A stretch of 64,000 nt of DNA from a bacterium (lineage in GTDB: Bacteria; Zhuqueibacterota; Zhuqueibacteria; Residuimicrobiales; Krinioviventaceae). Positions within the stretch are counted from its first letter, which is position 1. The number at the start of each line of letters is the position of its first letter. The stretch covers positions 1 through 64,000 of the forward strand of contig JAKQIY010000083.1 of NCBI GenBank assembly GCA_029561455.1, given 5' to 3'. This document shows positions 24,264-56,799 of this stretch, in pieces. The translations under genes were made by a program, and so were the position numbers. The notes below the pieces were generated by a model, which did not search any database, was not told the origin of the DNA, and saw nothing but the letters and a program-made list of their open reading frames with translations.

Positions 24264-24278
24264 CAGGAGTTCTATAAT

Positions 24279-25304: not shown

Positions 25305-25373
25305 ATGTTGCTGTTTATAAAGAAAATTATCATTATATAGAAAAACAAAATAAATATAAACACAGGTGTTATT

Positions 25374-26702: not shown

Positions 26703-26716
26703 CGGTAAATTATCGT

Positions 26717-29367: not shown

Positions 29368-29379
29368 GGAGTGTACAAC

Positions 29380-30219: not shown

Positions 30220-30384
30220 AAAAGAAGAGAAATTCGGACTGGTAAACAGATCTAATATAACTAGTTTTGCACATCAGGATACCATCATTTGTTTTTTTTG
30301 TAGTACTTTTGGTACGATTTGAATAATAAAAGTAACTCATGAAAAGTGCTATACTGCAAAATGTAAGCTAATTATAAGGATTCA

Positions 30385-32283: not shown

Positions 32284-32383
32284 CTGAAAATGATCTGATT
32301 CTGGATCTGGATAATTCATAAAATTCAGAAAAAATGCTTTTTTAGAACGAATTTGAATTAGCTTTATAATTTTGGAGTTTTAC

Positions 32384-34051
32384 ATGAATAAAAAAATCTA
32401 TATCAGGCTTTTGCTTCTCACCGTCATTATTTTAAATTTTTACTATGGCTGTTCCCGGCATTCACAAAATATGGTTGAAATGGAACAATGGCAGGAAATT
32501 GAATTAAATTTCACATCAGAAAATCAATATCAAAATCCTTATACGGATGTTGAATTCTGGGTAGAGTTTACCGGGCCAAATGGTGAAAATCTCAGCCGTC
32601 CGGGATTCTGGTTTGAGAAAAATATCTGGCAAGTCCGATTTGCCAGTCCAACTGATGCCGGCCAATGGCACTGGAAAAGTTTTGCAAACGATACTACCGA
32701 TTTAGGCTTAAATGGACGACAGGGAACGTTAATCTCCAAGCCCTATAAAGGGAAAAATCCGCTGATCAAAAACGGCTTACTCAGGATGTCGCCTGGAAGG
32801 CGTAATGTGATTCATGCAAATGGAAAACTGTTTTTAATGATTGGCGATACACCATGGGCCCTTCCCTGGCGTGGAACTGTCAAGACGGTTACTGAATATG
32901 CACAAAAGAGACAATCGCAGGGTTTCAACACCGCTTTACTTATGTCGCTGCAACCCGACTGTGAAGCCAAAGGTCCAAGAAACCGCACCGAACGGGATGC
33001 TTTTGATGTAGCCTTTGAAGATTTAAAAGATGGTCATATAAACCAGTTGAATCCCTTTTATTTTCAATATGTTGATTCGTTGCGTAATATCCTGGTTGAG
33101 CATGGTATTGTACCGGTATTTCAACCCGTTTTTCATGGTTTTGGCTGGAAAGGTCAAAAGGTGCTGGGTTGGGACATGGATGCAAAAGAATATGCCCGCT
33201 ATTGTCGTTACCTGGTTGCACGTTACGGCGCTCAACCGGCTATGTGGCTGGTAGGGGCCGATAGTGATGGACGTAACAAAGGCATTAAAGAAGGCGGTGA
33301 AGAAATTGAAAAATGGGATGCCTACCAACAACCTGCTGGTATTCATTACTCTCCATTCGATGATTACACGCCTGATTTTCTGAAGGATTTTGGTGGAAAA
33401 TACGAACCACACATGAACCGAACGTTTCAGGAGGCGGACTGGTTAGATTTTCAATGGTGCCAGACCGGACACAGTGGCAAACATCTGTTCCATAAAGTGG
33501 CGCTTATGCATGACAATAAACCGGTTAAAGCATCATGCAACGCAGAACCTACTTATGAGGGGATCAGCGATTCGCTGAATGGTTCTGGCTGGTGGCAGGG
33601 TCATGAGGCATGGTCACAATTTTGCTCAGGTGGGACTATGGGGGTTATCTACGGTGCAGGTGGCTTGTGGAACTGGAAATTGTATAAAGATGAACAATGG
33701 CCCGAATGGGCAGATTCAAAAGTTTCGTGGCAAGAAGCCATTCAGCTTCCCGGAGCAAATTTTGTGGGTTATCTTGGCAAGGCACTTGAAGGTCTGGACA
33801 TTACGGACATTGAAAGACATCCTGAGCTTGCCGATGGGCAGCTCTGCCTGGCAAAACCTGGCAAGCTTTATATAATCTATTTGCCTGAAGGAGGTAAAGT
33901 AAAGATTGCCGGGCTGTCGGATCAAATGCAGTATCGCTGGTTTGATCCGGTAAAAGGAAATTTTGAGGTGGATGGCGTTGTTCAAGCTAGCAAAAATAAT
34001 TTTATTGCGGATGGGAAAAATCCACAAGTGCTTATTATTAAAGAGAAATAA
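32384..34051 (+). CDS. Lipoprotein DUF5060-DUF4038 glycosidase (GH140-like)
   Basis: A 555-residue lipoprotein (MNKKIYIRLLLLTVII...YYGC, lipidated Cys near 23). The ATG at 32384 follows GGAG by 6 nt. After the signal, a DUF5060 beta-sandwich (about 35-125: NPYTDVEFWVEFTGPNG...DAGQWHWKSF) precedes a DUF4038 TIM barrel starting LMIGDTPWALPWRGT. Candidate catalytic acids lie in WLVGADSDGRNKG and CNAEPTYEG, matching in position the Asp and Glu of the GH140 enzyme at 25374. The C-terminal small beta domain ends VLIIKEK. Probably a surface or periplasmic apiosidase or related pectin side-chain hydrolase. Confidence 0.82.
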   Translation: MNKKIYIRLLLLTVIILNFYYGCSRHSQNMVEMEQWQEIELNFTSENQYQNPYTDVEFWVEFTGPNGENLSRPGFWFEKNIWQVRFASPTDAGQWHWKSFANDTTDLGLNGRQGTLISKPYKGKNPLIKNGLLRMSPGRRNVIHANGKLFLMIGDTPWALPWRGTVKTVTEYAQKRQSQGFNTALLMSLQPDCEAKGPRNRTERDAFDVAFEDLKDGHINQLNPFYFQYVDSLRNILVEHGIVPVFQPVFHGFGWKGQKVLGWDMDAKEYARYCRYLVARYGAQPAMWLVGADSDGRNKGIKEGGEEIEKWDAYQQPAGIHYSPFDDYTPDFLKDFGGKYEPHMNRTFQEADWLDFQWCQTGHSGKHLFHKVALMHDNKPVKASCNAEPTYEGISDSLNGSGWWQGHEAWSQFCSGGTMGVIYGAGGLWNWKLYKDEQWPEWADSKVSWQEAIQLPGANFVGYLGKALEGLDITDIERHPELADGQLCLAKPGKLYIIYLPEGGKVKIAGLSDQMQYRWFDPVKGNFEVDGVVQASKNNFIADGKNPQVLIIKEK

Positions 34052-34260
34052 TGATAAAAAGTTGAATAAGCAATGAATATTAACAATATGAATTTTTTTT
34101 CCTGAATTATTCGAGTACTCAAAATATTTGGAAAACGCAGCAAAACATAGATCGTTACAATAATATCGCAAATATTTTATATACCGGCAAAACTGAACAA
34201 GTTCTGTTATCCATAGTAGTAAACCGGCGGTGATTGGTGTTACGGTTTGCTTTTTTACCT

Positions 34261-34433
34261 GAGCAGCGTCCGGCTATTGACGGAAGGCAAAGTATTGGAT
34301 ATCTCCCAAGTGACATTTAAAATGCGCTGAAATCCTGATGTCGCCGACCCGGAGTCAGCGCCGGAAACAGGTGAATTGCCGGTTACAGTTGTTTCCTGAC
34401 CGATATTGCTGTTTGGCGCGGCCTGGACATTGG
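34261..34433 (+). pseudogene. Decayed fragment of an ApnL-type lactonase gene (C-terminal part)
   Basis: This 173-nt stretch aligns without gaps to apnL positions 31662-31834; by hand count 134 of 173 bases match. Read in the same frame it gives SSVRLLTEGKVLDIS... against SSARQFTNGKELHIS..., then FGAAWTL against YGAAWTL, but with two in-frame TGA codons. The preserved frame with stop codons shows a dead duplicate. The flanks (34052-34260 and 34434-34560) show no further match that I can see. Confidence 0.85.
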
Positions 34434-34582
34434 TGTTTTTTTATACGAGGCCATCAATCGCTAGCCGTGATTTAGCCGAATGATATTGGGAACATAAATC
34501 GAAGGGAACGGCCAAAGCATTTCATGAAATGGTTTGAGGAAAAATTTTGATTAATTTATTATCATTTTTTAGGAGGATTATA

Positions 34583-36835
34583 GTGAAATCAACAATTGAA
34601 AATTATTCAGGTAAACAGACCTGTACAATCAATTTAATAATTAGCCTGATTATCGTTTTTTTATTAACATCCCTCGCCTGCAATAAGAACCAAGCCACTG
34701 ATCAAATTGAAATCTGGGACAGGTTCGAAGTTCAATTACAGGGACCAAATACAGGCAATCCCTTTCAAGAAGTTCAAATAACGGCATCTTTTTCAACTGA
34801 TGGAACCCGCAAGGATATCACAGGCTTTTATGATGGGGATGGGATTTACAAAATTCGGTTTATGCCCGATAAAATCGGAACCTGGTCGTATGTCACTAAA
34901 AGCAACCGTCCTGAACTGAACGGAAAGCAGGGGACGTTTCTGTGCATCCCTGCTTCGGGCAAAAATCACGGGCCTGTTCAAGTCTTTAATACCTATCATT
35001 TCCGCTATGCCGATGGCACGCCCTACCAACAAATCGGTACCACCTGTTATGCCTGGGTGCACCAGGGCGATTCGCTGGAGAATAAAACGCTTGAAACATT
35101 GAAAAATGCGCCATTCAACAAGTTGCGGATGTGTATTTTTCCGAAAGATTATACCTATAATAAAAATGAACCCCGCTATTATCCATTTAAGCGGGATAGC
35201 CTGGGAAATAACGACTTTACCCGCTTCGACCCAGCCTTCTGGCAGCATCTGGAGCGGCGTCTGGAGGATTTGCTAACTTTGGGCATCCAGGCCGATATCA
35301 TTCTGTTTCATCCCTACGATCGCTGGGGCTACGCCGTCATGCCCGACTCGGTCGATGAATTTTATCTGGAATATGTTCTGGCAAGATTATCAGCCTGGAG
35401 GCATGTCTGGTGGTCAGCAGCCAATGAATTCGATTTCATGCACAACAAATCTATGCCAGACTGGCATCGTTTTTTTGAGATTTTGTATCGCAACGACCCG
35501 TATCATCGCTTGCGCTCCATTCACAACGGTCTCATTTTTTATGACCATACGTTACCCTGGATCACCCATGCCAGCATTCAGAGCACACATTTCGACAGCG
35601 CCCTGGCCTGGCGTGAACGTTACCAAAAGCCGCTCATTTATGATGAATGCCGCTACGAGGGTGATGTTACAGAAGGTTGGGGTAACCTGACGCCACAGGA
35701 GATGAATGCCATGTTCTGGAAAAGCTTGATCAATGGCGCTTATGCTGGGCACGGCGAAACTTACAAGCATCCCCAAGATATCCTGTGGTGGTCCAAAGGG
35801 GGCGAATTGCACGGCCAGAGTCCCGCCCGTATTGCCTTTTTCAAATCAATTCAGGAACAGACGCCGGCAACGGGATTAGAGCCAATTGACCCATTTGCGG
35901 CTGGAAAATTTGGTGAACAATATATTTATTACTTTGGCGAACAGTCTCCGGTGAAATGGTCGTTTGACCTTCCACCAAATATCGGGTATCAGGTGGAGGT
36001 CATCGATACCTGGGACATGAAATGTGACACACTACACGATAAATATAGCGGGAAATTCACCATCGATCTGCCCGCGAAAAAATATATCGCGGTGCGCATT
36101 ACCAAATCTGATTTAATATTCCCGATTAAAGATCCCGATTATTTCCCCAAAGGATCGTTGTTCTATGACCAAATTGTGGTTCGGCTGACCCATCCCTATC
36201 CCAATACGCTTCGTTATACGCTTGATGGCTCGGTGCCTTCTATCAATTCGCAGCCGTACACTGGCAGTATTTTGATCAATAAAAACACGCCGCTCAGGGT
36301 GCTAAGTATCGAGGGAAATCGCATGAGCAATTTGCTGGCCATCGATTTCAAACAGTCCGGCATGCAGCCTGCGACGGAGGTAGATGGGTTGGATAACGGT
36401 CTGGAATACCGCTTATTCAAAGGCAAGTGGGAGTCGATGCCAGATTTTACCAAATTAACGCCATTGAAAAAAGGTCTGACTAATCAGATCGATCCAGGCT
36501 TGGTCGATGAAAATGAGGATTTTTTCGGTCTGGTTTTTCAAGGCTATATTCTGATTCCTGAGGATCAGGTTTACAATTTTTATGCATCATCCGATGATGG
36601 TTCATTGATTTTCATCGATGGTCAGAAAGTTGTGGATAATGATGGCGTTCATGGCGTTGTTGAGCAGAGGGGACAGATCGGACTGAAACAAGGCTATCAT
36701 GCACTCGAAGTCCGGTTTTTCGATAACTGGTACGGTCAATTTCTAAAAATTGAAATCGAGAGCCCAAAGATGGCAAGACAAGCGGTTCCATCAACGATGC
36801 TGTTTCATACAAAGCGGAATATACAACAAAAATAA
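34583..36835 (+). CDS. Multidomain lipoprotein glycosidase: DUF5060, TIM barrel, DUF5605, chitobiase-like and PA14 domains
   Basis: A 750-residue lipoprotein. The start is a GTG at 34583 because AGGAGG sits 6 nt upstream; the frame also opens at 34547. Signal with LTSLAC (Cys near 33); DUF5060 (about 40-135); catalytic TIM barrel (about 145-430) with likely acids in SAANEFDFM and YDECRYEGD; a DUF5605-like beta domain (about 440-535); a chitobiase C-terminal-like segment (TLDGSVPSIN..., about 545-605); and a PA14-like carbohydrate-binding domain (about 625-735; SSDDGSLIFIDGQKVVDND). The Asn-Glu catalytic motif differs from the two GH140-like neighbours, so the linkage cut may differ. No enzyme name can be given safely. 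Confidence 0.8.
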   Translation: MKSTIENYSGKQTCTINLIISLIIVFLLTSLACNKNQATDQIEIWDRFEVQLQGPNTGNPFQEVQITASFSTDGTRKDITGFYDGDGIYKIRFMPDKIGTWSYVTKSNRPELNGKQGTFLCIPASGKNHGPVQVFNTYHFRYADGTPYQQIGTTCYAWVHQGDSLENKTLETLKNAPFNKLRMCIFPKDYTYNKNEPRYYPFKRDSLGNNDFTRFDPAFWQHLERRLEDLLTLGIQADIILFHPYDRWGYAVMPDSVDEFYLEYVLARLSAWRHVWWSAANEFDFMHNKSMPDWHRFFEILYRNDPYHRLRSIHNGLIFYDHTLPWITHASIQSTHFDSALAWRERYQKPLIYDECRYEGDVTEGWGNLTPQEMNAMFWKSLINGAYAGHGETYKHPQDILWWSKGGELHGQSPARIAFFKSIQEQTPATGLEPIDPFAAGKFGEQYIYYFGEQSPVKWSFDLPPNIGYQVEVIDTWDMKCDTLHDKYSGKFTIDLPAKKYIAVRITKSDLIFPIKDPDYFPKGSLFYDQIVVRLTHPYPNTLRYTLDGSVPSINSQPYTGSILINKNTPLRVLSIEGNRMSNLLAIDFKQSGMQPATEVDGLDNGLEYRLFKGKWESMPDFTKLTPLKKGLTNQIDPGLVDENEDFFGLVFQGYILIPEDQVYNFYASSDDGSLIFIDGQKVVDNDGVHGVVEQRGQIGLKQGYHALEVRFFDNWYGQFLKIEIESPKMARQAVPSTMLFHTKRNIQQK

Positions 36836-44619: not shown

Positions 44620-47346
44620 ATGACAAGATCTACAATGTCTCTGCTTTTACTGTTCTTGTGTCTCTGCCTGGCGTCATTGGCATCAGCACAAACAACCGGT
44701 AAAATTGCCGGTAACGTTTTGGATGAGCAAACCGGTGAACCGCTCATGGGCGCCAATATATCAATCCTTAACACCAATATGGGTGCGGCAGCCGGCGCCG
44801 ACGGTTCCTTTTTCATCATTAATGTTCAACCCGGTAGTTATAGTTTACGGGTACAAATGATGGGTTATGAAACGATGATATTGACTGATGCCCGGGTTTC
44901 AGTCAACCGCACGTTGAATATTACGGCAAAACTCAAACCGACAGTCATTGAAGGTCAGGAGGTTATTGTAACTGCCGAAAAATTACAGCTCAAAAAAGAC
45001 CAAACCAGTTCGGTGCGCAATGTTTCTGCCGATGAAATTGAACTGCTGCCAGTGGAAAGCGTTGGTCAGGTTGTCAACATGCAGGCGGGTGTAGTTGCCG
45101 GCCACTTTCGCGGCGGCCGCGACACCGAAGTAACCTATATGATCGATGGCATGCAGGTTGATAACAGCTTTTACGGCACATATAGCGGCGTCAGCGTCGA
45201 GACTGAAGCGGTTCAAGATCTTGAAGTTATAACCGGCACCTTTAATGCCGAATATGGCCGGGCCATGAGCGGTATTGTCAACGCAGTTACCAAAGAAGGC
45301 GAAAATTCCTTTCACGGTTCTGCTTCCGGCAGTGTGGCAAATTTTTTGACCGGTAAAACGGATGTCTTTCCCGGTTTGGAATTTAATTCCGATCTTAATA
45401 TGAGTCAGGATTATAAAATCCAGTTGGAAGGTCCGGTAATAAAAAATCGGTTAACCTTTTTTACCAATTACCGCTATCAAAACCTCAACGGCCACCTCAA
45501 CGGCATTCATAAATTTAATCCGTCCGATTACAGCGTCTATCCAACCGACGACCCCGCGACCTGGCATACGGAAGCCACCGGTACCGGTGAATATGTTTCT
45601 ATGGATAAAGACTATTATCATAATTTCACCGGCAAACTGGCCTTAAAAGTTACCAACAACATCAAAGCATCTGTACTTTATACTTTTAATAAAAGCAAGA
45701 ATAGCGATTATAACCATAATTATAAATATAATCCGACCGCGCTCCGTAATAATTATGGCGAATCGAATTACACCGCTTTTACGTTTACCCACATGATCAA
45801 TCGCGCCTTGTTTTACGACCTGAAAGTGTCGTACCTCAATAATGTCGGCGAAAGTTATGTATATGAAAATCCGCTCGATTCCCGTTATGTCCATCCCAAA
45901 TATGTGGGCACCGGTACAACCGGCTTTGCCACCGGCGGCAATGGAGACACAGGGAAAAGCACAGATTCGTTTAACGATCTGACCACCAAACTGGACTTTT
46001 ACTGGCAGGCCAATAAAATCCACAGTTTCAAAACCGGTGTTCTTTACATTGATCATGAGATTGACCGTTTCCGGGTCGATGTTCGCAATATCTATTCCGG
46101 TTTGTCATTTGAAAACGAACAGGAAGTTGATGCGGTTACCGGTAAAATTACTTACCCCTTTTATGAACTGGAAATAATGCCGATTACCGATAAAACCATG
46201 GACGTTTATAATGTTCGTCCTTATGAGCTTTCCGGTTATTTACAGGACAAAATGGAATTCCAGGAAATGGTCATCAATGTCGGCTTGAGGTATGATTATT
46301 TCAATTCCAACCAGGTCTTCCCTTCCGACCGCAGAAACCCGGCCAACCAGCTATCACTGCCGGATAGTATGATGTCGACATATAAAAAAGCGGACCCGCA
46401 AACACAACTCAGTCCCCGTTTTGGTTTGTCATATCAACTCAGTGACCAGGCGGTTATGCATATCAGTTATGGGCATTTTTTCCAAATGCCGCCAATGTAT
46501 TCTTTATATGCCAACAACATTTTCCGCGTACCTGTCAGCGATTATTCCACCACCATGGGTAATACCCTGTTAAAACCGCAAAAAACCATACAATATGAAA
46601 TCGGCATCTGGCAGGAGTTGACCAAAGGCATGGGTCTTGAACTGTCTTTGTACTATCGCGATATTTACGATTTGTTATCTACAAAAATTGTCTCTACGTA
46701 TAACCAGATCGAATACGGACTGTATACGAATAAAGATTATGGCAATGCGCGCGGTCTGGAAGTTAAATGGGATTATATCATCGGGAAATTTTATACAGGC
46801 TTGAATTATACACTGGCCTATACACGTGGTAATGCCGATAATCCGACCCAAACCTTTACCCGCGCCGGGAGTAGTATGGACCCCATTACACGACTTATCC
46901 CTATGACGTGGGATCAGCGGCATACTTTTAATACAACTGTCCGCTATTCGACCGGGAATATGGGCGCTACATTTTTGCTTTATTACAATTCGGGCACCCC
47001 GTATACTTATCAACCGTTGGAGATCAGCCCGCTCTCGCTGATTAATTTGTACGAAAACAATGCCTATAAACCATCGGGAATTACTTTAGACTTTTCGAGC
47101 TATTATAACATTACTCTTTTGGGGAATATCAAAGGTCAATTCACTTTGAATATTTATAATTTACTTGACAGAAAGAATGCCATGTGGGTGTATAACGATA
47201 CCGGTCAACCTTATACCACAATCATATTCGACAGTGACCGCGCTAACCATCGCAGTAATTTCAATACCTATGATGACCGTGTTCAAAATCCGACCGCCTA
47301 TTCAGCGCCCCGGCAAATCAAACTTGGATTTGGCATTTTGTTTTAA
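44620..47346 (+). CDS. TonB-dependent receptor with carboxypeptidase-like N-terminal domain
   Basis: A 908-residue outer-membrane receptor. Signal peptide about 1-23; a carboxypeptidase regulatory-like beta-sandwich (about 27-105, GKIAGNVLDEQTGEPLMGANI); a plug domain (about 110-230, with VTYMIDGMQVDN and TGTFNAEYGRAMSGIVNAVTKEG); then a 22-strand-type barrel to the C-terminal Phe (IKLGFGILF). Such receptors import oligosaccharides or siderophores with TonB energy. It is not followed by a SusD homologue; a very large secreted protein and a PorV-like barrel come next instead. Strong AAGGAGGG ribosome-binding site. Confidence 0.92.
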   Translation: MTRSTMSLLLLFLCLCLASLASAQTTGKIAGNVLDEQTGEPLMGANISILNTNMGAAAGADGSFFIINVQPGSYSLRVQMMGYETMILTDARVSVNRTLNITAKLKPTVIEGQEVIVTAEKLQLKKDQTSSVRNVSADEIELLPVESVGQVVNMQAGVVAGHFRGGRDTEVTYMIDGMQVDNSFYGTYSGVSVETEAVQDLEVITGTFNAEYGRAMSGIVNAVTKEGENSFHGSASGSVANFLTGKTDVFPGLEFNSDLNMSQDYKIQLEGPVIKNRLTFFTNYRYQNLNGHLNGIHKFNPSDYSVYPTDDPATWHTEATGTGEYVSMDKDYYHNFTGKLALKVTNNIKASVLYTFNKSKNSDYNHNYKYNPTALRNNYGESNYTAFTFTHMINRALFYDLKVSYLNNVGESYVYENPLDSRYVHPKYVGTGTTGFATGGNGDTGKSTDSFNDLTTKLDFYWQANKIHSFKTGVLYIDHEIDRFRVDVRNIYSGLSFENEQEVDAVTGKITYPFYELEIMPITDKTMDVYNVRPYELSGYLQDKMEFQEMVINVGLRYDYFNSNQVFPSDRRNPANQLSLPDSMMSTYKKADPQTQLSPRFGLSYQLSDQAVMHISYGHFFQMPPMYSLYANNIFRVPVSDYSTTMGNTLLKPQKTIQYEIGIWQELTKGMGLELSLYYRDIYDLLSTKIVSTYNQIEYGLYTNKDYGNARGLEVKWDYIIGKFYTGLNYTLAYTRGNADNPTQTFTRAGSSMDPITRLIPMTWDQRHTFNTTVRYSTGNMGATFLLYYNSGTPYTYQPLEISPLSLINLYENNAYKPSGITLDFSSYYNITLLGNIKGQFTLNIYNLLDRKNAMWVYNDTGQPYTTIIFDSDRANHRSNFNTYDDRVQNPTAYSAPRQIKLGFGILF

Positions 47347-47384
47347 TCAGTGTTGATGTGAATACACAAACCAGGAGAGTACGA

Positions 47385-50300
47385 ATGAAAAAGATCATTA
47401 CCTTAATAATTGGCCTCATCATCTGCCTGTACACGTCAGCATTCAGCCAGGGCAAGATTTATGAAGGCCCGGATGATCCGGCTGGGGATATTTCCGAAGA
47501 AAGAGCCGGTTATATGAATGGCAATCGTGTATTTCTATATTTTGAAAACACAACCCAGTTAGCTGACTATCCGCGCGTCAACACCTCTAAATGGCCAAAT
47601 GACTATACCGGTTGTCGAATGCTGGATAATGTCTCCGTTCTCATTGGCGGTGAAATATATTTGCAAAATGAAAAAGACCCGGTTACTGATCCCGCTCAGG
47701 TTGCACAGCTTTCCGCCCAGGGTGGCATTGATACCCTGTTCTATCTGCAGACCAGTGGTTTTCCCTCAGCCAGCATGGATATGAATTATGACGGGACAGT
47801 TGAATGGGGCTTTTACCCGGTGCCCGGTTATATGAATCCGTTACAGGATTACCCGGCAATGAGTAATAAACCGGACTCATGGCCGGTGGATGGCTGGCCC
47901 TCTACAGGCCGTTTGAAAAAATGGCCGGGAGAATGGAACGGCAGATTCGGTCGGGGTATTAGTTATGCCGATCTGGAAACTTATTTTGTGGCGAATGACG
48001 CCCAGGACATGGAATATATTATTCAACGCAATGACCCCGAAGAAAAACCCATTACGGAAGGACTGCGATACTATCCCCGTCCGGGAGTTAAAATCGGCGA
48101 TGTAAATCCCAATGTGACCATACAAAAAGGTTTTCCCTGGGGCGGACTCGGACTGCGGGTTGAAGTGCGCGGTTTTCAATGGAATAATCCGGAAGCCAAA
48201 GACATCATCTTCTGGGAATATAACATTGCCAACATTTCCGATTATGATTTGATCACCTGTGGGTTCGGATACTTTATTGATAACAGCATCGGCGGCGATA
48301 CCGGCGGTGACAAGGAAGAAGGCTATTTTGATAAAGTACTCGATTTGTCTTATGTGTGGGAATCGATAGGAATTGGCGAAGGCGGCCTGGTGCCGGGAAT
48401 CATCGGCATTGCCTACCTGGAGAGCCCGGGACGACCTTTTGATAATGCTGATAACGATGATGATGGTCTGATTGATGAAAAACGCGATAACGGCACCGGC
48501 GAGTTGATCGGTGCAACCGACGGCATTCAGGACATGAACAAATTCTTGTCCTTTTATAACTATACCAGCGATGACTTGCACCCGCATTATTCCGGTGATG
48601 AGGATCAGGACTGGTCTGATGGTTTGGATTTGAATAACAATGGCACATATTCATATCAGGGTAATGATGGCAAATGGGTCATTGAAGAGGGTGAATACGC
48701 AGGCGATGACGTCGGTTTGGATGGTGTTGGCCCGGCTGACTTGAACTACAACGGCCCCGACGAAGGCGAATGTAACCACCGACCGGATTATGTTGAAGCG
48801 GTAGGATGCGAGCCAAACTTTGCGGCTACGGATGTCTCAGAAGCCGATATGGTTGGCTTGACCTCCTTTGCATTGTTTGACTGGCCGCAGTGGCAGGAAT
48901 GGAATTATATGCTCGATGAAGATAAAATAATGTGGAATGTTATGAATTCGTTCAACCTGGACAGCTACCTGCTTTCCGCCGGCCCGGGCTCACTTTACGA
49001 AATTTTTGGTTCCACTGTCTTTCCATTTTATAAAGGCCGCACCGAACGTATCTCTATGGGTATAATGTTTAGTTATGACAATCTTGCCGATTTACAATCG
49101 TCCACGCATTATGCTCCCAAAATGTTCAGACTTAAAGAAACGGCCCAGGTCATATACGAGCGTGATTATCGCTTTGCCCAACCGCCGCTTATGCCGACAT
49201 TGCAAGCCACTGCGGGTGACGGTAAGGTGATCCTGAGTTGGGATAATATTTCCGACCAAAGAACCTACGAGCCGTTCCTGCAAAATGAGAATGATTTTGA
49301 AGGCTACAAACTCTATCGCGCTACCGATAAATTGTTCTCCGACGCTGAGATCATTACCACCGGTCAGGGAGACAAACACAGAAAAGCGCCAATTTTCCAA
49401 TGCGATGTAAAAAACAGAAGAATTGGGTACGCCAATTATGGTATTGTTGAAGGCAGCGCCTTTTATCTTGGCGACGATACAGGAATTAAACATTATTATA
49501 TTGATCAAGACGTCAAAAACGGCGTTACCTATTATTATGCCATTGTCGCTTACGATTATGGTGTGCCGGATTTTGGGGTATCGCCTACCGAAAATAATAT
49601 TGTCATCGAACTGGACGAAGCTGAAGAAATCGTTCGGTTGGGCCAAAATGTGGCTGTGGTAACACCGCAAACCAGGGCCGCCGGGTACAATCCACCCAAT
49701 ATATTAATAAACAAAGAGTTAACATCCGGTTCAATTACCGACGGCATGTTTACTCCTGTCATTATGGATATTAAAGAAGCGCTGGCAAATCATACCTACA
49801 AAATGACATTTCAAACCGATACAATCGGTCATTCGAAATCTGAACGTTATCGACATGCGATGGATATGAAATTGGTAACAAGCGGGTTGAAAATCTATGA
49901 TACCACTACTAATAATTCACTTACATATATAGAGAATTCAAACAGTTATCCTGAAGATAACTTGCTTTATAATTCGGATATTGATTATTGGTATTATAAT
50001 TCTAGTAAAACATTGCTGACCGATATTTTCAATGGCATCCAAATCACTATGAACATACCTGATGATTCTGTTTCTATTGATGTAGACCGGTCAGGCTGGA
50101 TCACCGGGTCATCCCAGATAAATATTGCCACCGGTGTGGAAACAGTATTTTTCCCATGGGAATATGAAATCGTATTTACCGAAGGAGCCGACCCATATAA
50201 AACAATAACGACTATGACAAGTAGTATAAAAGACACTGATGGCCGTTCAATTAAAAAAGATTCTTTATTGTTAAACCAAACATATAATTTTTATGTAATT

Positions 50301-50933
50301 AATAAAAAATCGGTTGATTCAACAGGAGCCTATGAAAAGGTTGATCTTGTCACTTTTGACCTGAATGACAATGGGGTTTATGATTGGGATCAGGATATCG
50401 TTCTTGTTGGCCATTGCATTTTATCTACAAGCAGATATTACTGGTGCGGTACCATTTTTACAATCGATTTACGCGCTAATGCTGATGAGCAAGCCTTGCC
50501 GAAAGCGAACGATGTGTATCGCCTTATTCTTTCACGGCCGCTAACAAAGGATGATCAATTTGTATTTACTGTTAATCCCGAACAAAAAGTAAAAAGGGCA
50601 AATATAAAAACTTCTATGGATTCCATCAAAGTTGTACCTAATCCGTATATTGCGACTAATGAAATGGAGACTGCTGTAGCCAATAAATACCTTAACCAGC
50701 GTCGTCGCATTATGTTCACCCATATACCGGCGCAATGTGATATCCGTATTCTGACCTCTTCAGGCATACTCGTCAATCATATTGAAGTGAATAATGAACC
50801 GGAAGCAGGCGCCGTTCACTGGGATTTACTCTCGTACGAAGGTTTGGAAATTGCCGCCGGCATGTATATTTATCACGTTAAATCCCGTGTAACAGGTGAT
50901 GAAAAAATCGGCAAGTTTGCAGTGATTAAATAA
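47385..50933 (+). CDS. Very large secreted protein with calcium loops and C-terminal sorting-like domain
   Basis: An 1182-residue exported protein. The ATG at 47385 is preferred (AGGAG at 47373-47377, then MKKIITLIIGLIICLYTSAFSQG as signal peptide); the frame opens at a GTG at 47358. Asp/Asn-rich calcium-type loops occur around 355-370 (DNADNDDDGLIDE) and 410-425 (GLDLNNNGTY). A fibronectin-like block (PLMPTLQATAGDGKVILSW...EGYKLYRA) lies near 600-690. The C-terminus (VVPNPYIATNE...LSYEGLEIAAGMYIYHV...GKFAVIK) is a FlgD-like sorting-type module. It follows the TonB receptor by 38 bp and may be the surface ligand-capturing partner; that is inferred from position. Confidence 0.8.
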   Translation: MKKIITLIIGLIICLYTSAFSQGKIYEGPDDPAGDISEERAGYMNGNRVFLYFENTTQLADYPRVNTSKWPNDYTGCRMLDNVSVLIGGEIYLQNEKDPVTDPAQVAQLSAQGGIDTLFYLQTSGFPSASMDMNYDGTVEWGFYPVPGYMNPLQDYPAMSNKPDSWPVDGWPSTGRLKKWPGEWNGRFGRGISYADLETYFVANDAQDMEYIIQRNDPEEKPITEGLRYYPRPGVKIGDVNPNVTIQKGFPWGGLGLRVEVRGFQWNNPEAKDIIFWEYNIANISDYDLITCGFGYFIDNSIGGDTGGDKEEGYFDKVLDLSYVWESIGIGEGGLVPGIIGIAYLESPGRPFDNADNDDDGLIDEKRDNGTGELIGATDGIQDMNKFLSFYNYTSDDLHPHYSGDEDQDWSDGLDLNNNGTYSYQGNDGKWVIEEGEYAGDDVGLDGVGPADLNYNGPDEGECNHRPDYVEAVGCEPNFAATDVSEADMVGLTSFALFDWPQWQEWNYMLDEDKIMWNVMNSFNLDSYLLSAGPGSLYEIFGSTVFPFYKGRTERISMGIMFSYDNLADLQSSTHYAPKMFRLKETAQVIYERDYRFAQPPLMPTLQATAGDGKVILSWDNISDQRTYEPFLQNENDFEGYKLYRATDKLFSDAEIITTGQGDKHRKAPIFQCDVKNRRIGYANYGIVEGSAFYLGDDTGIKHYYIDQDVKNGVTYYYAIVAYDYGVPDFGVSPTENNIVIELDEAEEIVRLGQNVAVVTPQTRAAGYNPPNILINKELTSGSITDGMFTPVIMDIKEALANHTYKMTFQTDTIGHSKSERYRHAMDMKLVTSGLKIYDTTTNNSLTYIENSNSYPEDNLLYNSDIDYWYYNSSKTLLTDIFNGIQITMNIPDDSVSIDVDRSGWITGSSQINIATGVETVFFPWEYEIVFTEGADPYKTITTMTSSIKDTDGRSIKKDSLLLNQTYNFYVINKKSVDSTGAYEKVDLVTFDLNDNGVYDWDQDIVLVGHCILSTSRYYWCGTIFTIDLRANADEQALPKANDVYRLILSRPLTKDDQFVFTVNPEQKVKRANIKTSMDSIKVVPNPYIATNEMETAVANKYLNQRRRIMFTHIPAQCDIRILTSSGILVNHIEVNNEPEAGAVHWDLLSYEGLEIAAGMYIYHVKSRVTGDEKIGKFAVIK

Positions 50934-51011
50934 GGCCTGACAATGGTAAAAGATCTGTTATCTGGTCAAACATTTATCTTTTCCCTTGTCTTCTATAAAG
51001 GAGAATAAAAA

Positions 51012-52067
51012 ATGAATATAAAGCTAGTACTGACAGGCATTTTGTTGTTCGTAGTGACATCATGCCTCTTTGCCAACAAGCCCTACCGGGTTGGTACAAC
51101 CGCAGCAAACTTTTTAGAAATGGGTATAGGCAGCAGCGCCGGCGCCATGGGCGACGCTTATGTGGCAGTGACCCGCGATTTGAATTCCGTTTACTGGAAC
51201 CCGGCGGGCCTTGCCTTCATGGATGCCAAGGAGGTACAATTTTCATATCAACCCTGGATAGCCGATATTAATGTCCAGTTTGCCGGAGCCGGCATTGTTA
51301 TGCCTCAAGTCGGTACGCTTGCGCTCAGCGTAAGTAGTATGAATTATGGTCGTACCGACGTTACCACCATGGATATGCAGGAAGGTACAGGTGAATCATA
51401 CCAGGCGATTGAATATGCGGCAACATTATCTTACGCCCGCAAACTTGCCCAATGGTTCAGCTTTGGGTCTTCTGTTAAATATGTATCTTCCAACATCTGG
51501 CACATGAAGGCCCAGGCTATGGCTCTCGATCTGGGCGTAATTATTAATACCTACTTTTTCTCCCCGACCAAAAACCGGGAAGATGGTATGACAATTGGTA
51601 TGAGTATTGCCAACTATGGCACCCGTATGCGTTATGACGGTATGGACTTGTTGCGGCCAATCGATATCCTGCCGGATCAAAATGGTAATTATAAAGATGT
51701 GGAAGGCCAGTTCCGGTTGCAGCAATGGGAACTGCCGCTTACCTTGCGGCTCGGTGTCGCTGTCTATCCAATCGTCACCAAATCACAAAAACTGACCCTG
51801 GCTGTTGACGCTTTGCATCCAAACAACAATTGCGAATCTGTCAATGTTGGCGCAGAGTACGGTTACCTTATACCCGGCGTAGGGCGTTTTCTGTTACGCA
51901 CCGGTTACCGCGGGCTATTTATGGAAGAATCTTTTTATGGAATGACCTTTGGGGCCGGTATGCATTTGACATTGCTTGGCAACAGGCAGCTTAAATTCGA
52001 TTATGCAGTCAAGGACTTGGGTATACTTGGCTACTCTTCGATATTTAATATTGGTTTTACATTCTAA
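51012..52067 (+). CDS. PorV/PorQ-type outer-membrane beta-barrel protein
   Basis: A 351-residue outer-membrane protein: signal peptide about 1-21, then the family hallmark at the N-terminus (FLEMGIGSSAGAMGDAYVAV, DLNSVYWNPAGLAFM) and a FadL-like barrel ending GYSSIFNIGFTF. PorV-type proteins hold or shuttle proteins with type IX-type C-terminal domains at the surface. The gene lies 78 bp after the gene of a protein with such a tail, which supports that role. AAAGGAG precedes the ATG, and a 15-bp perfect hairpin ends the operon. Confidence 0.88.
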   Translation: MNIKLVLTGILLFVVTSCLFANKPYRVGTTAANFLEMGIGSSAGAMGDAYVAVTRDLNSVYWNPAGLAFMDAKEVQFSYQPWIADINVQFAGAGIVMPQVGTLALSVSSMNYGRTDVTTMDMQEGTGESYQAIEYAATLSYARKLAQWFSFGSSVKYVSSNIWHMKAQAMALDLGVIINTYFFSPTKNREDGMTIGMSIANYGTRMRYDGMDLLRPIDILPDQNGNYKDVEGQFRLQQWELPLTLRLGVAVYPIVTKSQKLTLAVDALHPNNNCESVNVGAEYGYLIPGVGRFLLRTGYRGLFMEESFYGMTFGAGMHLTLLGNRQLKFDYAVKDLGILGYSSIFNIGFTF

Positions 52068-52108: not shown

Positions 52109-52289
52109 CTTTATATATGAGATATTACAAGATTTACAAAAGAAAAGAATTAAACCCAACCTGAATAATTGTAACTGTTAAAAAAATTATATAACTTTAT
52201 TGGACTTGTCATAAAAAAGTTGACTTTACAGTCAGGAACTGAAAGTAAACACAAAACAATAACTCTATTAGATAATGAGGTACATAAAA

Positions 52290-53294
52290 ATGAAAAAAAT
52301 AGTTGTTGCCGGAGCCGGCGGGTTCATTGGTGGACATTTAACAAAAGCGCTAAAATCTATGGGGCATCAGGTAAGGGCAGTTGATATTAAACCGCTAAAC
52401 AGATGGTATCAGGTAACTCCAGGCGTTGAAAATTTAGTGCTGGACTTGAAAATAAAAGACCATTGTTACCAGGCCCTAAATGGTTACGAAGAGGTATTTA
52501 ATCTGGCTGCCGATATGGGTGGCATGGGATTTATCGAAACGCATAAAGCCGATTGTATGTTAAGTGTGCTGATTAACACCCATTTGTTAATGGCCGCACG
52601 TGATCTTGGCATACAAAGATTCTTTTATGCATCATCAGCCTGTGTATATAATGGAGAAAAGCAAACAGATCCAAATAATCCCGGTTTGAAAGAAGCTGAT
52701 GCTTACCCTGCATTGGCAGAAGACGGTTATGGCTGGGAAAAACTCTTTAGCGAAAGAATGTGCCGTCATTTTCATGAAGATTTCGGTCTTGTAACCCGCG
52801 TAGCGCGCTTCCATAATGTTTATGGTCCTTTTGGCACCTATGACGGTGGACGTGAAAAAGCTCCTGCCGCAATTTGCCGGAAAGTTATTGATGGCAAGTT
52901 GTACGGTAAAAAAGAAATTGTCATTTGGGGAGATGGCCATCAAACACGAAGTTTTATGTACATAGATGATTGCATTAAAGGGATTCAGGCAATAATGTAT
53001 AGTAATATTGAGGAACCGATAAACCTTGGCAGTGCGGAAATGGTATCTATCAATCAACTTGTTGATTATGTTGAAGAAATTGCCAATTTCAAACTTGAAA
53101 GGAAATATGATCTCAAAGCGCCCAAAGGTGTTCGCGGCAGGAACAGCGACAATACACTCATAAAAAAATACCTGGATTGGGAACCTTCCATTCCATTAAA
53201 AGAAGGATTAAAGAAAACTTTTGACTGGATTAAAGAACAAATAATTGAAAATAAAGGTAAAGATTCTCATAAAGTTGTATTCAACGAGTTTTAA
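52290..53294 (+). CDS. GDP-mannose 3,5-epimerase-like SDR enzyme
   Basis: A 334-residue extended short-chain dehydrogenase/reductase. KKIVVAGAGGFIGGHL (about 2-17) is the NAD-binding GxxGxxG; NLAADMGGMGFIETH (about 71-85) and RFHNVYGPFGTYDGGREKAP (about 174-193) are nearly the signature segments of plant GDP-mannose 3,5-epimerase. The catalytic Tyr-x3-Lys is DGYGWEKLFSE (about 147-157). That enzyme interconverts GDP-D-mannose and GDP-L-galactose. The ATG at 52290 has GAGG 9 nt upstream; an in-frame ATG at 52275 is less likely. First gene of a tight operon with a sugar kinase fusion, mutarotase and symporter. Confidence 0.85.
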   Translation: MKKIVVAGAGGFIGGHLTKALKSMGHQVRAVDIKPLNRWYQVTPGVENLVLDLKIKDHCYQALNGYEEVFNLAADMGGMGFIETHKADCMLSVLINTHLLMAARDLGIQRFFYASSACVYNGEKQTDPNNPGLKEADAYPALAEDGYGWEKLFSERMCRHFHEDFGLVTRVARFHNVYGPFGTYDGGREKAPAAICRKVIDGKLYGKKEIVIWGDGHQTRSFMYIDDCIKGIQAIMYSNIEEPINLGSAEMVSINQLVDYVEEIANFKLERKYDLKAPKGVRGRNSDNTLIKKYLDWEPSIPLKEGLKKTFDWIKEQIIENKGKDSHKVVFNEF

Positions 53295-53311
53295 ATTAGG
53301 GCATGTTACTG

Positions 53312-54448
53312 ATGAAAGTAAAAAAAGTTCTAGTTAGCGGGTGTTATGATCTGATTCATGGAGGGCATGTCACTTTTTTTAAAACAGCCGCGCAATACGG
53401 CAAACTTTATGTAGCAGTAGGAGCCGATGCAAATTTGCTGTTACTTAAAGGTAAAGCGCCCTATTTCTCTCAGGAAGAGCGACTTTACCTGGTAAAATCA
53501 ATTCGTTATGTTGAAGAAGCGTTTATCTGTTCCGGATCCGGCATGCTAGATTTCGAACCGGATATAGAAAGAATAAAACCGGATATTTTTATTGTTAATT
53601 CCGATGGGCATACGCCGGAAAAAGAAGGGTTATGTAAAAAGCATGGTATTGAATATAAAGTACTGGAAAGAATTCCGGCAAATGGTTTACCTGCCCGCGC
53701 CAGCTCAACCATAAAAAAAGAATTACAATTCCCTTATAGAATTTGTATTGCCGGGGGGTGGATGGATCAGCCATGGGTTTCAGAAATTCATCCCGGTAGC
53801 GTGGTTGTGGCGCAATTGTCGCCTACTATCGAATTCAACAATCGTTCAGGTATGGCGACCAGTTCAAGAAAAATTGCAATAGATATATGGGGTAACCAGC
53901 TTCCCCATGGAGATCCGATCAAAAATGCAAAATTATTGTTTGGCGCAGAAAATCCTCCCGGTTCGGCTTATGTTTCCGGTTCACAAGATCAAATTGGTTT
54001 GCTAAATCCGGGCATCAGTCGTCTTTATTATAATGGAAAATATTGGCCGGAGCACATTGATTCCACAAGAGAGCAGGATATTTGTGAATGGCTTGGCAAC
54101 GTTCTTTATTTAATACCATTGGAACCGAGAGCGTTCGACTATGATCCGCTCATCAAGAAAAATCTCGACAAAGAAACTATAAAAGAGTTGGGCGATGCGG
54201 GAGAACAATGCTGGCAAAGTATTCTACTTAAAGATACTAAAGGTTTGGGTCAATCTATGACCAGAACATTTTTGGCCTGGAAAAAGATACTACCTTACAC
54301 TGTTCCCGAATATGTTATGAATGAAATGGAAAGCAAGTATTTCCCCAATTATCCCGGCGCTATAACATCCGGTGGTGGTGGTGGTTATGTTGTAGTGGCT
54401 TGTGATAAAGAAATTAAAGGCGCACTGAAAATAAAAGTGAGGTTTTAA
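53312..54448 (+). CDS. Nucleotidyltransferase - GHMP sugar kinase fusion
   Basis: A 378-residue bifunctional-looking protein. The N-terminal cytidylyltransferase-like domain (about 1-140) has GCYDLIHGGHVTFF with the HxGH nucleotide-binding motif at 16-19 and SSTIKKEL at its end. The C-terminal part (about 142-378) resembles a GHMP kinase of the fucokinase type: RICIAGGWMDQPW at the start, NRSGMATSSRKIA in the phosphate-loop region, TSGGGGGYVVVACD near the end. The combination would phosphorylate a sugar at C1 and attach a nucleotide. This is the reverse domain order and much shorter than the known L-fucokinase/GDP-fucose pyrophosphorylase. Start ambiguity: ATG at 53303 or 53312. It abuts the mutarotase gene. 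Confidence 0.78.
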   Translation: MKVKKVLVSGCYDLIHGGHVTFFKTAAQYGKLYVAVGADANLLLLKGKAPYFSQEERLYLVKSIRYVEEAFICSGSGMLDFEPDIERIKPDIFIVNSDGHTPEKEGLCKKHGIEYKVLERIPANGLPARASSTIKKELQFPYRICIAGGWMDQPWVSEIHPGSVVVAQLSPTIEFNNRSGMATSSRKIAIDIWGNQLPHGDPIKNAKLLFGAENPPGSAYVSGSQDQIGLLNPGISRLYYNGKYWPEHIDSTREQDICEWLGNVLYLIPLEPRAFDYDPLIKKNLDKETIKELGDAGEQCWQSILLKDTKGLGQSMTRTFLAWKKILPYTVPEYVMNEMESKYFPNYPGAITSGGGGGYVVVACDKEIKGALKIKVRF

Positions 54449-54850
54449 TTGGTAAAGAGATTCAAACGTTATTGCAAAACATTGGAGCTTGAAAACAATC
54501 CGTTGTTGATTGAAGAATATAAAAAAATGCATTCTATGGGCAAAGCATGGCCTGAAGTAACCCAAGGCATGAAAAAGGTTGGCATTATTGATATGGAGAT
54601 TTATTTAACCGGGACAACATTGTTTATGATTATGGATACGGAAGAAAATTTTGACCATGAAAAAGCAATGACAGAGCTTGGTAGTTTGCCCCGTCAGTCG
54701 GAATGGGAAGCAGCAGTATCCAAATTTCAAAAAACAAATGCTTTATCTTCAGCCAAAGAAAAGTGGCAATTAATTGAACGAATTTACAAGCTGGATCAGG
54801 TTGCAGAAAATAATATTACTGATGGATATGTTGAACAAATAACTATCTAG
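54449..54850 (+). CDS. L-rhamnose/L-fucose-type mutarotase
   Basis: A 133-residue protein of the RhaM (DUF718) ferredoxin-like fold: LIEEYKKMHSMGKAWPEVTQGMKKVGIIDMEIYLTG matches the usual substrate-site His, Trp and strand pattern, and SEWEAAVSKFQ is near the end of the standard domain. It would interconvert alpha and beta anomers of an L-sugar, feeding a C1 kinase. The start is a TTG directly after the TAA of the previous gene, with GAGG 6 nt upstream, and the N-terminus then matches the family; no ATG serves. Confidence 0.87.
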   Translation: MVKRFKRYCKTLELENNPLLIEEYKKMHSMGKAWPEVTQGMKKVGIIDMEIYLTGTTLFMIMDTEENFDHEKAMTELGSLPRQSEWEAAVSKFQKTNALSSAKEKWQLIERIYKLDQVAENNITDGYVEQITI

Positions 54851-54889
54851 TATTAACTAAACAATTCACATTAATATCGGGAATTAACT

Positions 54890-56569
54890 ATGACCCCAAT
54901 TCCTCTCTCGCCATTCGATTGGGCAATAATGATCGTTTATTTTGCATTTATTGCCTGGATCGGTTTTTATCTGAAAAAATTCACAAAAACGGATAATGAT
55001 TTTTTCCTTGCTGGAAGAAGAAACAGCATGTGGGTTTGCGGCATTGCATTCATGTCCGCCAACATGGGTTCTATGGAAGTTATCGGCTATGCCGGGCAAA
55101 GCATCAAGTACGGTTTGTATGCCGCGCATTTTTATTTGATAGGCGCTGTACCCGCAATGCTCTTTTTAGGGGTTTTTATGATGCCGTTTTACTACCACAG
55201 TAAAATTAAATCTATTCCCGGTTATTTAAAAGCCCGCTTTAACGAAAGTTCACGTGTTTTTAATGCCGCAATGTTCGTAGTGAATATGATACTCGTCTCG
55301 GGTATTGCGCTTTATCTTCAGGCGCTCATCTTTCATACTTTTCTGGGCTGGAATTGGGATATGAGTATTTGGCTTTCCGCAGCGTTTGTGGCTTTTTATG
55401 TTACCCTTAGCGGGCTACTTTCAGCAATGTTCACAGAAATTCTCCAGTTCTTTTTAATTTGGGCCGGTATTTTGATTCTGCCAATATTGGGCTTGGTTGA
55501 TATTGGCGGCCCTGCAGAAATTTCACAAAACCTTGCGGTTGGTTTTAAAACTTTATGGTCCACATCAAATCTTCCGCAAAACAATCCCATGTATATTACC
55601 TGGGGTGGGTTGGTGTTGGGATTGGGTTTTGCAATCGCATTCGGATACTGGACCACCGATTTCCTGATTATTCAACGCGCTTTTTCCGCCAAAAATTTAC
55701 GTTCCGCGCGAATGACGCCAATTATTGGATCGTATTTTAAACTATTACTCGGCGCGGTAGTCGTTGGTACAGGAATGATTGCATTGGTATTAATCAATAA
55801 TCCGGCTAGCGGGTTCAGCTTGCTGGTGGAAAATGGCAAAACTAATTATGATTCGGTAATGCCGCTGTTAATGAGAAGATATTTTACACCCGGCTTGATA
55901 GGTGTTGGGGTCACTTCTCTGTTAGCTATGTTTATGGCAGGAATGGCCGGCAACATGAGTTCTTTTAATGCGGTTTGGACTTATGATATTTATCACTCGA
56001 TAATAAATAAAAACGCCTCGCCGCAAAAACTACTACAAATTGGCAGAATAGCTACGGTATGCGGAATTATTCTCAGCGTTGCCGGAGCATATATTGCGCG
56101 AAGCATGCCAACCGTAATCGACTATCTTCAGGCCATCAGTTCCATGTTTTTATCCCCCTCAGTTGCAATAATTATTTTAGGAATGTTCTGGAAATTTATC
56201 ACTCCCAAAGGCGGATTCTGGGGAATGTTAGTCGGTACTCTTGTAGCTGTGGCACTATTCATTGCGCAAGAAGTTAAATTGATACCTGTAAGTTTTGTGA
56301 TACCGGGATTCAGTGGTGCCGATGAGCAATCATATATGGCGGCGAATTTCTGGCGAGCTGTTTGGGCCTGGTTAATTTCAACCGGCGCCGCAATTGCCAT
56401 AAGCTTTTTTACACAGAAAAAAACCGATGAAGAGTTGCGAGGTTTTGTTTACGGATTGGTTGATAAAGATCAGGCAGTAGAAGAAAAAGTGGTATTATAT
56501 AAAAAACCGGAATTCTGGGGAGCGGTTACATTGGTTATTTTTATTATCATTAATATAGTCCTTTGGTAG
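54890..56569 (+). CDS. Sodium:solute symporter family sugar transporter
   Basis: A 559-residue integral membrane protein with about 14 helices. FDWAIMIVYFAFIAWIGFYL starts helix 1; FFLAGRRNSMWVCGIAFMSANMGSMEVIGYAGQ is the conserved N-terminal SSS region, and FMAGMAGNMSSFNAVWTYDIY the Na+-site helix region. SSS members next to mutarotases and sugar kinases carry monosaccharides. It lies 39 bp after the mutarotase gene in the same operon, so its substrate is likely the L-sugar handled there. Confidence 0.9.
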   Translation: MTPIPLSPFDWAIMIVYFAFIAWIGFYLKKFTKTDNDFFLAGRRNSMWVCGIAFMSANMGSMEVIGYAGQSIKYGLYAAHFYLIGAVPAMLFLGVFMMPFYYHSKIKSIPGYLKARFNESSRVFNAAMFVVNMILVSGIALYLQALIFHTFLGWNWDMSIWLSAAFVAFYVTLSGLLSAMFTEILQFFLIWAGILILPILGLVDIGGPAEISQNLAVGFKTLWSTSNLPQNNPMYITWGGLVLGLGFAIAFGYWTTDFLIIQRAFSAKNLRSARMTPIIGSYFKLLLGAVVVGTGMIALVLINNPASGFSLLVENGKTNYDSVMPLLMRRYFTPGLIGVGVTSLLAMFMAGMAGNMSSFNAVWTYDIYHSIINKNASPQKLLQIGRIATVCGIILSVAGAYIARSMPTVIDYLQAISSMFLSPSVAIIILGMFWKFITPKGGFWGMLVGTLVAVALFIAQEVKLIPVSFVIPGFSGADEQSYMAANFWRAVWAWLISTGAAIAISFFTQKKTDEELRGFVYGLVDKDQAVEEKVVLYKKPEFWGAVTLVIFIIINIVLW

Positions 56570-56577
56570 GAGGAATT

Positions 56578-56799
56578 ATGAACACCGATATAAAGGGAAT
56601 GAGAAGCATCTGGTTTTTTGTTGGCTTGATCTTGACCGCCATTGGAATTATCGTACTGGCTGCAGGGATATTCGAATTATTCTATCCTGCAAACCCGGAA
56701 GTGAGATTGGCCGGCTTGCATGCCAATATTTGGTGGGGAGGTTTGATAATTATTTTTGGCTTGATTTACACAATTACAAATAAAAACAAGTATGTTTAA
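56578..56799 (+). CDS. Small two-helix membrane protein
   Basis: A 73-residue protein with two hydrophobic helices (about 9-32, WFFVGLILTAIGIIVLAAGIFEL, and 48-66, ANIWWGGLIIIFGLIYTI). The ATG at 56578 follows AGGAGG with a 4-nt gap and lies 8 bp after the symporter stop. It is probably an accessory subunit or companion of the transporter; no family was recognised. Confidence 0.75.
   Translation: MNTDIKGMRSIWFFVGLILTAIGIIVLAAGIFELFYPANPEVRLAGLHANIWWGGLIIIFGLIYTITNKNKYV

Follow-up and report, generated by a model that had tools for sequence, protein, structure and literature searches.

L-Galactose is a constituent of pectin RG-II, cereal xylan, and red-algal polysaccharides. The bacterial routes for its breakdown that we found in the literature are oxidative; they proceed by dehydrogenases through L-galactonate and D-tagaturonate, and no nucleotide sugar is involved (PMC12632266). 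In vitro, FKP of Bacteroides fragilis (BfFKP) converts L-galactose to GDP-L-galactose, although weakly (PMC11982464), and the sole characterised bacterial GDP-mannose 3,5-epimerase (GME), that of Methylacidiphilum, has a proposed role in lipopolysaccharide synthesis (PMC6678494). In the open-access literature that we searched, we found no paper on the breakdown of L-galactose via nucleotide sugars, and no cytidylyltransferase-GHMP fusion acting on L-fucose or L-galactose. The component families are already known. Here we analysed a stretch of 64,000 nucleotides (the window), its host genome (G000), and related loci (L numbers). Our genomic data make it likely that an operon of the window serves the salvage, that is the catabolism, of L-galactose via GDP-sugars in a Leloir-like manner; which sugar and nucleotide are used, in which direction the route runs, and that ManC takes part are inferred.

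The operon and its predicted products

Five genes on the + strand are tightly packed at 52290-56799, with intergenic gaps of 8, 0, 39, and 8 bp according to the ORF calls, and form an operon (Table 1). For the GME-like gene an alternative in-frame ATG upstream, at 52275, is possible, and the RhaM-family gene starts with a TTG immediately after the stop codon of the fusion gene. The Pfam matches within the operon were PF01370 (Epimerase), PF01467 (CTP_transf_like), PF05336 (rhaM), and PF00474 (SSF); the small membrane protein had no match in the Pfam search.

Table 1. Positions of the operon genes and of neighbouring features in the window.
Feature	Position	Strand	Evidence or content
GME homologue (SDR)	52290-53294	+	best PDB match 2c59, catalytic residues kept
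Fusion of nucleotidyltransferase and GHMP sugar-1-kinase	53303-54448	+	PF01467, predicted fold
RhaM-family sugar mutarotase	54449-54850	+	PF05336
Sodium:solute symporter (SSS), probable L-sugar importer	54890-56569	+	PF00474/TIGR00813
73-aa membrane protein, role unknown, final gene of the operon	56578-56799	+	ORF 8 bp past the symporter
TonB-dependent receptor, large secreted protein, PorV-family protein	44620-52067	+	association only
Apiose-type catabolic cluster, upstream of the operon	23454-36832		three apiosidase-domain proteins, RuBisCO-like protein, PF07005/PF17042 kinase, PF16896 dehydrogenase-like protein

The epimerase is 49% identical to Arabidopsis GME, the structure of which (2c59) was the top PDB match (E=1.2e-97). 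A second GME entry (8sg0) matched at 9e-97, and all other structures had E values of about 1e-29 or worse. The complete plant GME catalytic set is present (S116, C118, Y147, K151, K190, R282): the GxxGxxG motif is met by GAGGFIG at residues 8-14, S116, Y147, and K151 form the Ser-Tyr-Lys triad, and C118, K190, and R282 align with C145, K217, and R306 of plant GME. A Cys acid together with a Lys base (His in GDP-fucose synthase) and an acidifying Arg (Lys in GDP-fucose synthase) distinguish GME from GDP-fucose synthase and GalE (PMC8787198). Around the substrate we listed 48 positions of plant GME; the window enzyme and closely related enzymes have the same residue at most of them. This conservation is not trivial, since the plant residues H204, Q243, R306, and S310 are replaced in a second GME type from Chloroflexi. 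The window epimerase is a GME by sequence, but interconversion of GDP-mannose and GDP-L-galactose is itself inferred from sequence alone.

The fusion protein of 381 residues consists of an N-terminal nucleotidyltransferase with cytidylyltransferase fold (about residues 6-141) and a C-terminal GHMP sugar-1-kinase (about residues 142-381). An AlphaFold2 model based on 72 aligned homologues had a mean pLDDT of 89.8. Structure comparison of this model revealed resemblance of residues 6-141 to glycerol-3-phosphate cytidylyltransferase (1coz; Z 17.8, 1.9 A), while the nearest folds for residues 142-381 were WcbL heptokinase (Z 22.0), FKP fucokinase with beta-L-fucose 1-phosphate (Z 20.0), and galactokinase (Z 20.0). 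As the kinase half gave no match in the Pfam search, its designation as a kinase rests on the predicted GHMP fold. R146, W153, D155, and D229 are invariant in the 72 sequences and, as inferred by spacing and not by superposition, would correspond to FKP residues R592, W599, D601, and D762 (PMC11982464). The kinase end of a sister-clade fusion matches the NCBI model for bifunctional fucokinase/fucose-1-phosphate guanylyltransferase (1.3e-12). The fusion did not meet a test for the fucose pyrophosphorylase domain PF07959, since PF01467 was its only Pfam domain, nor a test for HldE: the kinase half is GHMP and not PfkB, and the heptose adenylyltransferase model TIGR02199 scored only 44 bits, far short of its cut-off of 181.5. 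To our knowledge, no activity has been established for any protein of the window's fusion clade. Among nucleotidyltransferases of this fold, those whose substrates are known use CTP or ATP, and the sole basis for inferring GTP as the nucleotide of the fusion is its GME partner. Viral contigs contained no relative of the fusion, and searches of plasmids returned only matches to the nucleotidyltransferase domain, not a full-length relative. In one locus (L075:6043-8834) a window-type GME is followed by separate kinase-like and nucleotidyltransferase-like ORFs, which replace the fusion.

The RhaM-family protein exceeded the Pfam cut-off for PF05336 (E=1.5e-25, 89.8 bits versus 23.4) but did not meet the L-rhamnose mutarotase equivalog TIGR02625 (19.8 bits versus 99.6); it aligns closely with RhaM proteins from other GME-fusion operons. 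The symporter matched PF00474 (1.2e-47, 163 bits versus a cut-off of 22.8) and TIGR00813. It is 43% identical to a symporter adjoining FucI in the relative G010 (L135), an adjacency that is consistent with an L-fucose-like sugar as possible cargo.

A preliminary description of this region, made without database searches, had proposed a tight operon of a symporter, a mutarotase, a C1 kinase and nucleotidyltransferase in one protein, and a GME-like epimerase. Every named part was confirmed. For the fusion this holds at the level of families and predicted fold, with the enzyme activity inferred, and for the epimerase it is supported by the full GME fingerprint, with activity on GDP-L-galactose inferred.

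Two clades of fusion proteins and their gene neighbours

A scan of named genomes yielded 541 confirmed stretches with members of the fusion family, the best 80 of which were examined. The tree of the fusions has two fully supported sides: group 1, which includes the window (21 sequences from Bacteroidota, Ignavibacteriota, KSB1, Planctomycetota, and Verrucomicrobiota), and the sister clade, group 2 (51 sequences from Bacteroidota, Chloroflexota, and others). Members of group 1 are 55-72% identical to the window fusion and those of group 2 44-48%, with no intermediate values. A clean separation of the groups is given by sixteen alignment columns; columns 134, 135, and 138 of the nucleotidyltransferase belong to this set, as do 148, 326, 333, 353, 356, and 357 of the kinase.

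Within 5 kb of the fusion in 20 group 1 loci we found GME (18 loci), LacI (11), GH29 (10), FucP (8), RhaM (6), ManC (6), and GH95 (4), but no FucI, GMD, or Fcl. The usual operon contains GME, fusion, ManC, FucP, RhaM, and GH29 (L048, L053); in L057 and L061 there is no GME next to the fusion. Two cultured carriers, Draconibacterium aestuarii (L053) and Maribellus sp. YY47 (L051), possess GME, fusion, ManC, FucP, and RhaM. We found the GME-fusion pair repeatedly, in Bacteroidota, Ignavibacteriota, Planctomycetota, and KSB1-type genomes, and often together with ManC, RhaM, FucP, LacI, and glycosidases; its presence in 18 of 20 same-clade loci across several phyla argues that the pairing is not due to chance. 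The loci share ancestry, so that partner counts are not independent and Fisher values are descriptive only. ManC of group 1 is of the mannose-1-phosphate guanylyltransferase type and reaches 330 bits with TIGR01479; it stays below the whole-protein cut-off (373) since it lacks the isomerase domain that the model includes. ManC is not part of the window operon. A block of secreted-protein and PorV genes like that preceding the window operon is also found upstream of the GME-fusion pair in L036, L037, and L058, there together with GH95. By association only, it is possible that the TonB-dependent receptor, the large secreted protein, and the PorV-family protein of the window contribute the outer-membrane stage of sugar uptake to the system that the operon encodes.

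The partners of the 51 group 2 loci were FucP (8), FucI (7), GME (5, including a distant SDR), GMD (5), Fcl (4), ManC (4), GH29 (2), GH95 (1), and LacI (1), in contexts such as FucP-GMD-Fcl-ManC (L080) or FucK-FucA-FucI-FucP (L088). Judged from these neighbours, group 2 fusions may be candidate GDP-L-fucose salvage enzymes with a nucleotidyltransferase half unrelated to that of FKP. Examples come from Bacteroides sp., Tannerella forsythia, Flavobacterium, and Anaerolineae (L080:2023-3159, L089:10010-11140, L081:10001-11137, L084:9362-11137), and some group 2 fusions have a rhaM domain as an additional N-terminal part (L084). The second GME type (R306Q, S310F, H204Q, Q243A in plant numbering; L094:11140-12189, L105:6911-7876, L096:2916-3887, L075:11127-12110) is paired with Chloroflexi fusions of this clade, mostly adjoining FucI. 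Its sequence suggests that its specificity is probably different.

The glycosidases next to the fusions also differ between the groups. The group 1 GH29 of L049 scored 333 bits with BpGH29, an exo-alpha-L-galactosidase of a porphyran system (PMC12316285), versus 195 bits with the next fucosidase, and GH29 proteins that share at least 66% identity with that of L049 occur in six other loci. For the group 1 GH95 proteins of L037 and L036, the alpha-L-galactosidase BACOVA_03438 (PMC4491172) was closest (872 versus 755 and 883 versus 750 bits). In group 2 controls a fucosidase was closest for both GH29 (L084, 187 versus 114 bits) and GH95 (L112, 630 versus 577 bits). This two-way contrast in two unrelated families associates group 1 with release of L-galactose and group 2 with release of L-fucose. 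As an exception, L057 (also numbered L035) has no adjacent GME and a GH29 that resembles human tissue fucosidase. The GH29 proteins of L046, L050, and L053 are of other types, those of L050 and L053 being only 34-36% like the L-galactosidase type. The comparison is limited by the references, as structures exist for only one GH29 and one GH95 L-galactosidase.

Three candidate indicators were dropped. A Thr/His residue of GH95 does not discriminate L-galactose from L-fucose, since a fucosidase with Thr has been described, and this specificity is not determined by any one GH95 residue. Mutual exclusion of FKP (12 of 82 genomes) and the fusion (9 of 82) was not supported, because the overlap of one genome is close to chance. 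Absence of FucI is not informative about L-galactose either, as nearly all genomes of fusion-bearing relatives contain FucI.

Proposed route and alternative explanations

In the host genome, which is 98.8% complete, the classical L-fucose genes lie outside the operon (FucI on contig C36, FucK on C51, FucA on C76), and L-fucose thus already has its own route. ManC is found on C54, and two PGM/PMM proteins are encoded as well. No type I mannose-6-phosphate isomerase (PF01238) was found in G000; this is weak evidence, since the same search misses 12 of 14 control genomes. From ManC and two PGM/PMM proteins without the type I enzyme we infer that G000 would have another type of this isomerase. GDP-mannose 4,6-dehydratase (GMD) is absent from G000 (best candidate 27% identity), and no FKP exceeded the cut-off there, the sole PF07959 match being sub-threshold and on a contig other than that of the window. 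G000 has three GH95 proteins; the one tested matched BACOVA_03438 best, though only narrowly (860 versus 828 bits). An L-galactosidase-type GH29 in this genome (L143, C76:171467-172930) is 38% identical to that of L049 and has an internal TAA, which marks a pseudogene or a sequencing error.

In the route that we propose, the symporter would import L-galactose, the RhaM-family mutarotase would set its anomer, and the kinase half of the fusion would form L-galactose-1-phosphate. The nucleotidyltransferase half would transfer GMP from GTP, the inferred nucleotide, to L-galactose-1-phosphate, generating GDP-L-galactose and pyrophosphate, and GME would convert GDP-L-galactose to GDP-D-mannose. ManC, encoded in operons of relatives and elsewhere in G000, would use pyrophosphate on GDP-mannose to release mannose-1-phosphate and GTP, and phosphomannomutase would then feed glycolysis. 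Gene content, families, folds, conserved active sites, and recurring gene partners are observed. The formation of GDP-L-galactose by BfFKP in vitro indicates that the proposed chemistry is feasible.

The preliminary description had suggested the same path from L-galactose via the 1-phosphate and a nucleotide sugar to GDP-D-mannose, and this is supported by genomic inference, with activity, GTP, and flux direction inferred. It had left L-fucose or another L-sugar open. Three lines of evidence now favour L-galactose: the glycosidase contrast between the clades, the separate FucI/FucK/FucA set, and GME as the enzyme of GDP-L-galactose and GDP-mannose. Conservation of the operon across genomes, which it had named as a check, is borne out by the GME-fusion pair in 18 of the 20 clade loci, and ManC in related operons adds a likely, inferred exit step to its route. 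Its link to RG-II remains a suggestion: apiose and L-galactose both occur in RG-II and the apiose-type cluster of the window fits, but one shared polysaccharide for both clusters has not been shown.

The strongest alternative, still unlikely, is salvage of L-fucose, with the fusion as an FKP analogue making GDP-L-fucose and the epimerase either acting on GDP-L-fucose (to GDP-6-deoxy-D-mannose) or serving another pathway. It is supported by FucP, FucI, GMD, and Fcl next to the sister clade, by FucP, named for L-fucose, in 8 of 20 window-clade loci, by the closeness of the kinase fold to FKP fucokinase, and by L057, which couples the fusion with a fucosidase-like GH29. However, GME is near-obligatory in the window clade and has the catalytic site of plant GME, the glycosidases of this clade point to L-galactose, G000 has a separate classical L-fucose route, and neither FucI nor GMD is found near window-clade loci.

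It also appears unlikely that the operon is biosynthetic, in which case GME would supply a surface glycan with GDP-L-galactose made from GDP-mannose, and the fusion would merely recycle free L-galactose into the pool. The role proposed for Methylacidiphilum GME in lipopolysaccharide synthesis (PMC6678494), the ManC of some loci, which would provide GDP-mannose, and the presence of some sister-clade fusions in glycan-synthesis clusters would agree with this view. Yet instead of glycosyltransferases, window-clade loci contain glycosidases, importers, and LacI regulators, and the window operon has an importer and a mutarotase without a glycosyltransferase. Another L-sugar or nucleotide (e.g., activation with CDP or ADP and a GME relative whose specificity has changed) would be in line with a nucleotidyltransferase domain nearest to CTP- and ATP-using enzymes and with the RhaM name, which refers to L-rhamnose, but is very unlikely given that all GME catalytic residues are kept and that ManC, a GDP-mannose enzyme, occurs in six related operons.

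Salvage of L-galactose remains the preferred reading. A bolder version, which we can neither favour nor discount, is a complete Leloir-type L-sugar cycle in which ManC would regenerate GTP from pyrophosphate, the fusion would use GTP and have evolved independently of FKP, and the sister clade would do the same for L-fucose. The net reaction would be L-galactose + ATP to mannose-1-phosphate + ADP.

Comparison with known systems

If L-galactose salvage is correct, the GME reaction that plants use for making vitamin C is run backwards as catabolism. The window enzyme shares identity and the full catalytic set with plant GME. The known roles of plant and Methylacidiphilum GME are biosynthetic (vitamin C, glycans), whereas the window GME adjoins an importer and a sugar kinase, neighbours from which the reverse direction is inferred.

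The fusion would represent a second, unrelated kind of GDP-L-sugar salvage enzyme and give a function to a family present in hundreds of genome stretches, with L-galactose and L-fucose branches separable by neighbours and diagnostic residues. Like FKP, it unites N-terminal nucleotidyl transfer and a C-terminal GHMP sugar-1-kinase in one protein, and the GHMP domains superpose (Z 20 to 9iip). The N-terminal folds differ (PF07959 in FKP, cytidylyltransferase-like PF01467 in the fusion), FKP is much longer (about 950 residues), and the fusion is paired with GME. HldE/RfaE has a nucleotidyltransferase domain from the same superfamily, but its kinase is PfkB; the nearest fold to the kinase half is that of WcbL.

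Oxidative L-galactose catabolism, as in Phocaeicola vulgatus and Luteolibacter LG18, has the same substrate as proposed for the window operon. With the Leloir pathway for D-galactose (GalM, GalK, GalT/pyrophosphorylase, GalE), the proposed route shares the logic of mutarotase, 1-kinase, nucleotide transfer, and nucleotide-sugar epimerase. The Leloir pathway uses UDP, a D-sugar, and a 4-epimerase, while the window route would use GDP (inferred), an L-sugar, and a 3,5-epimerase.
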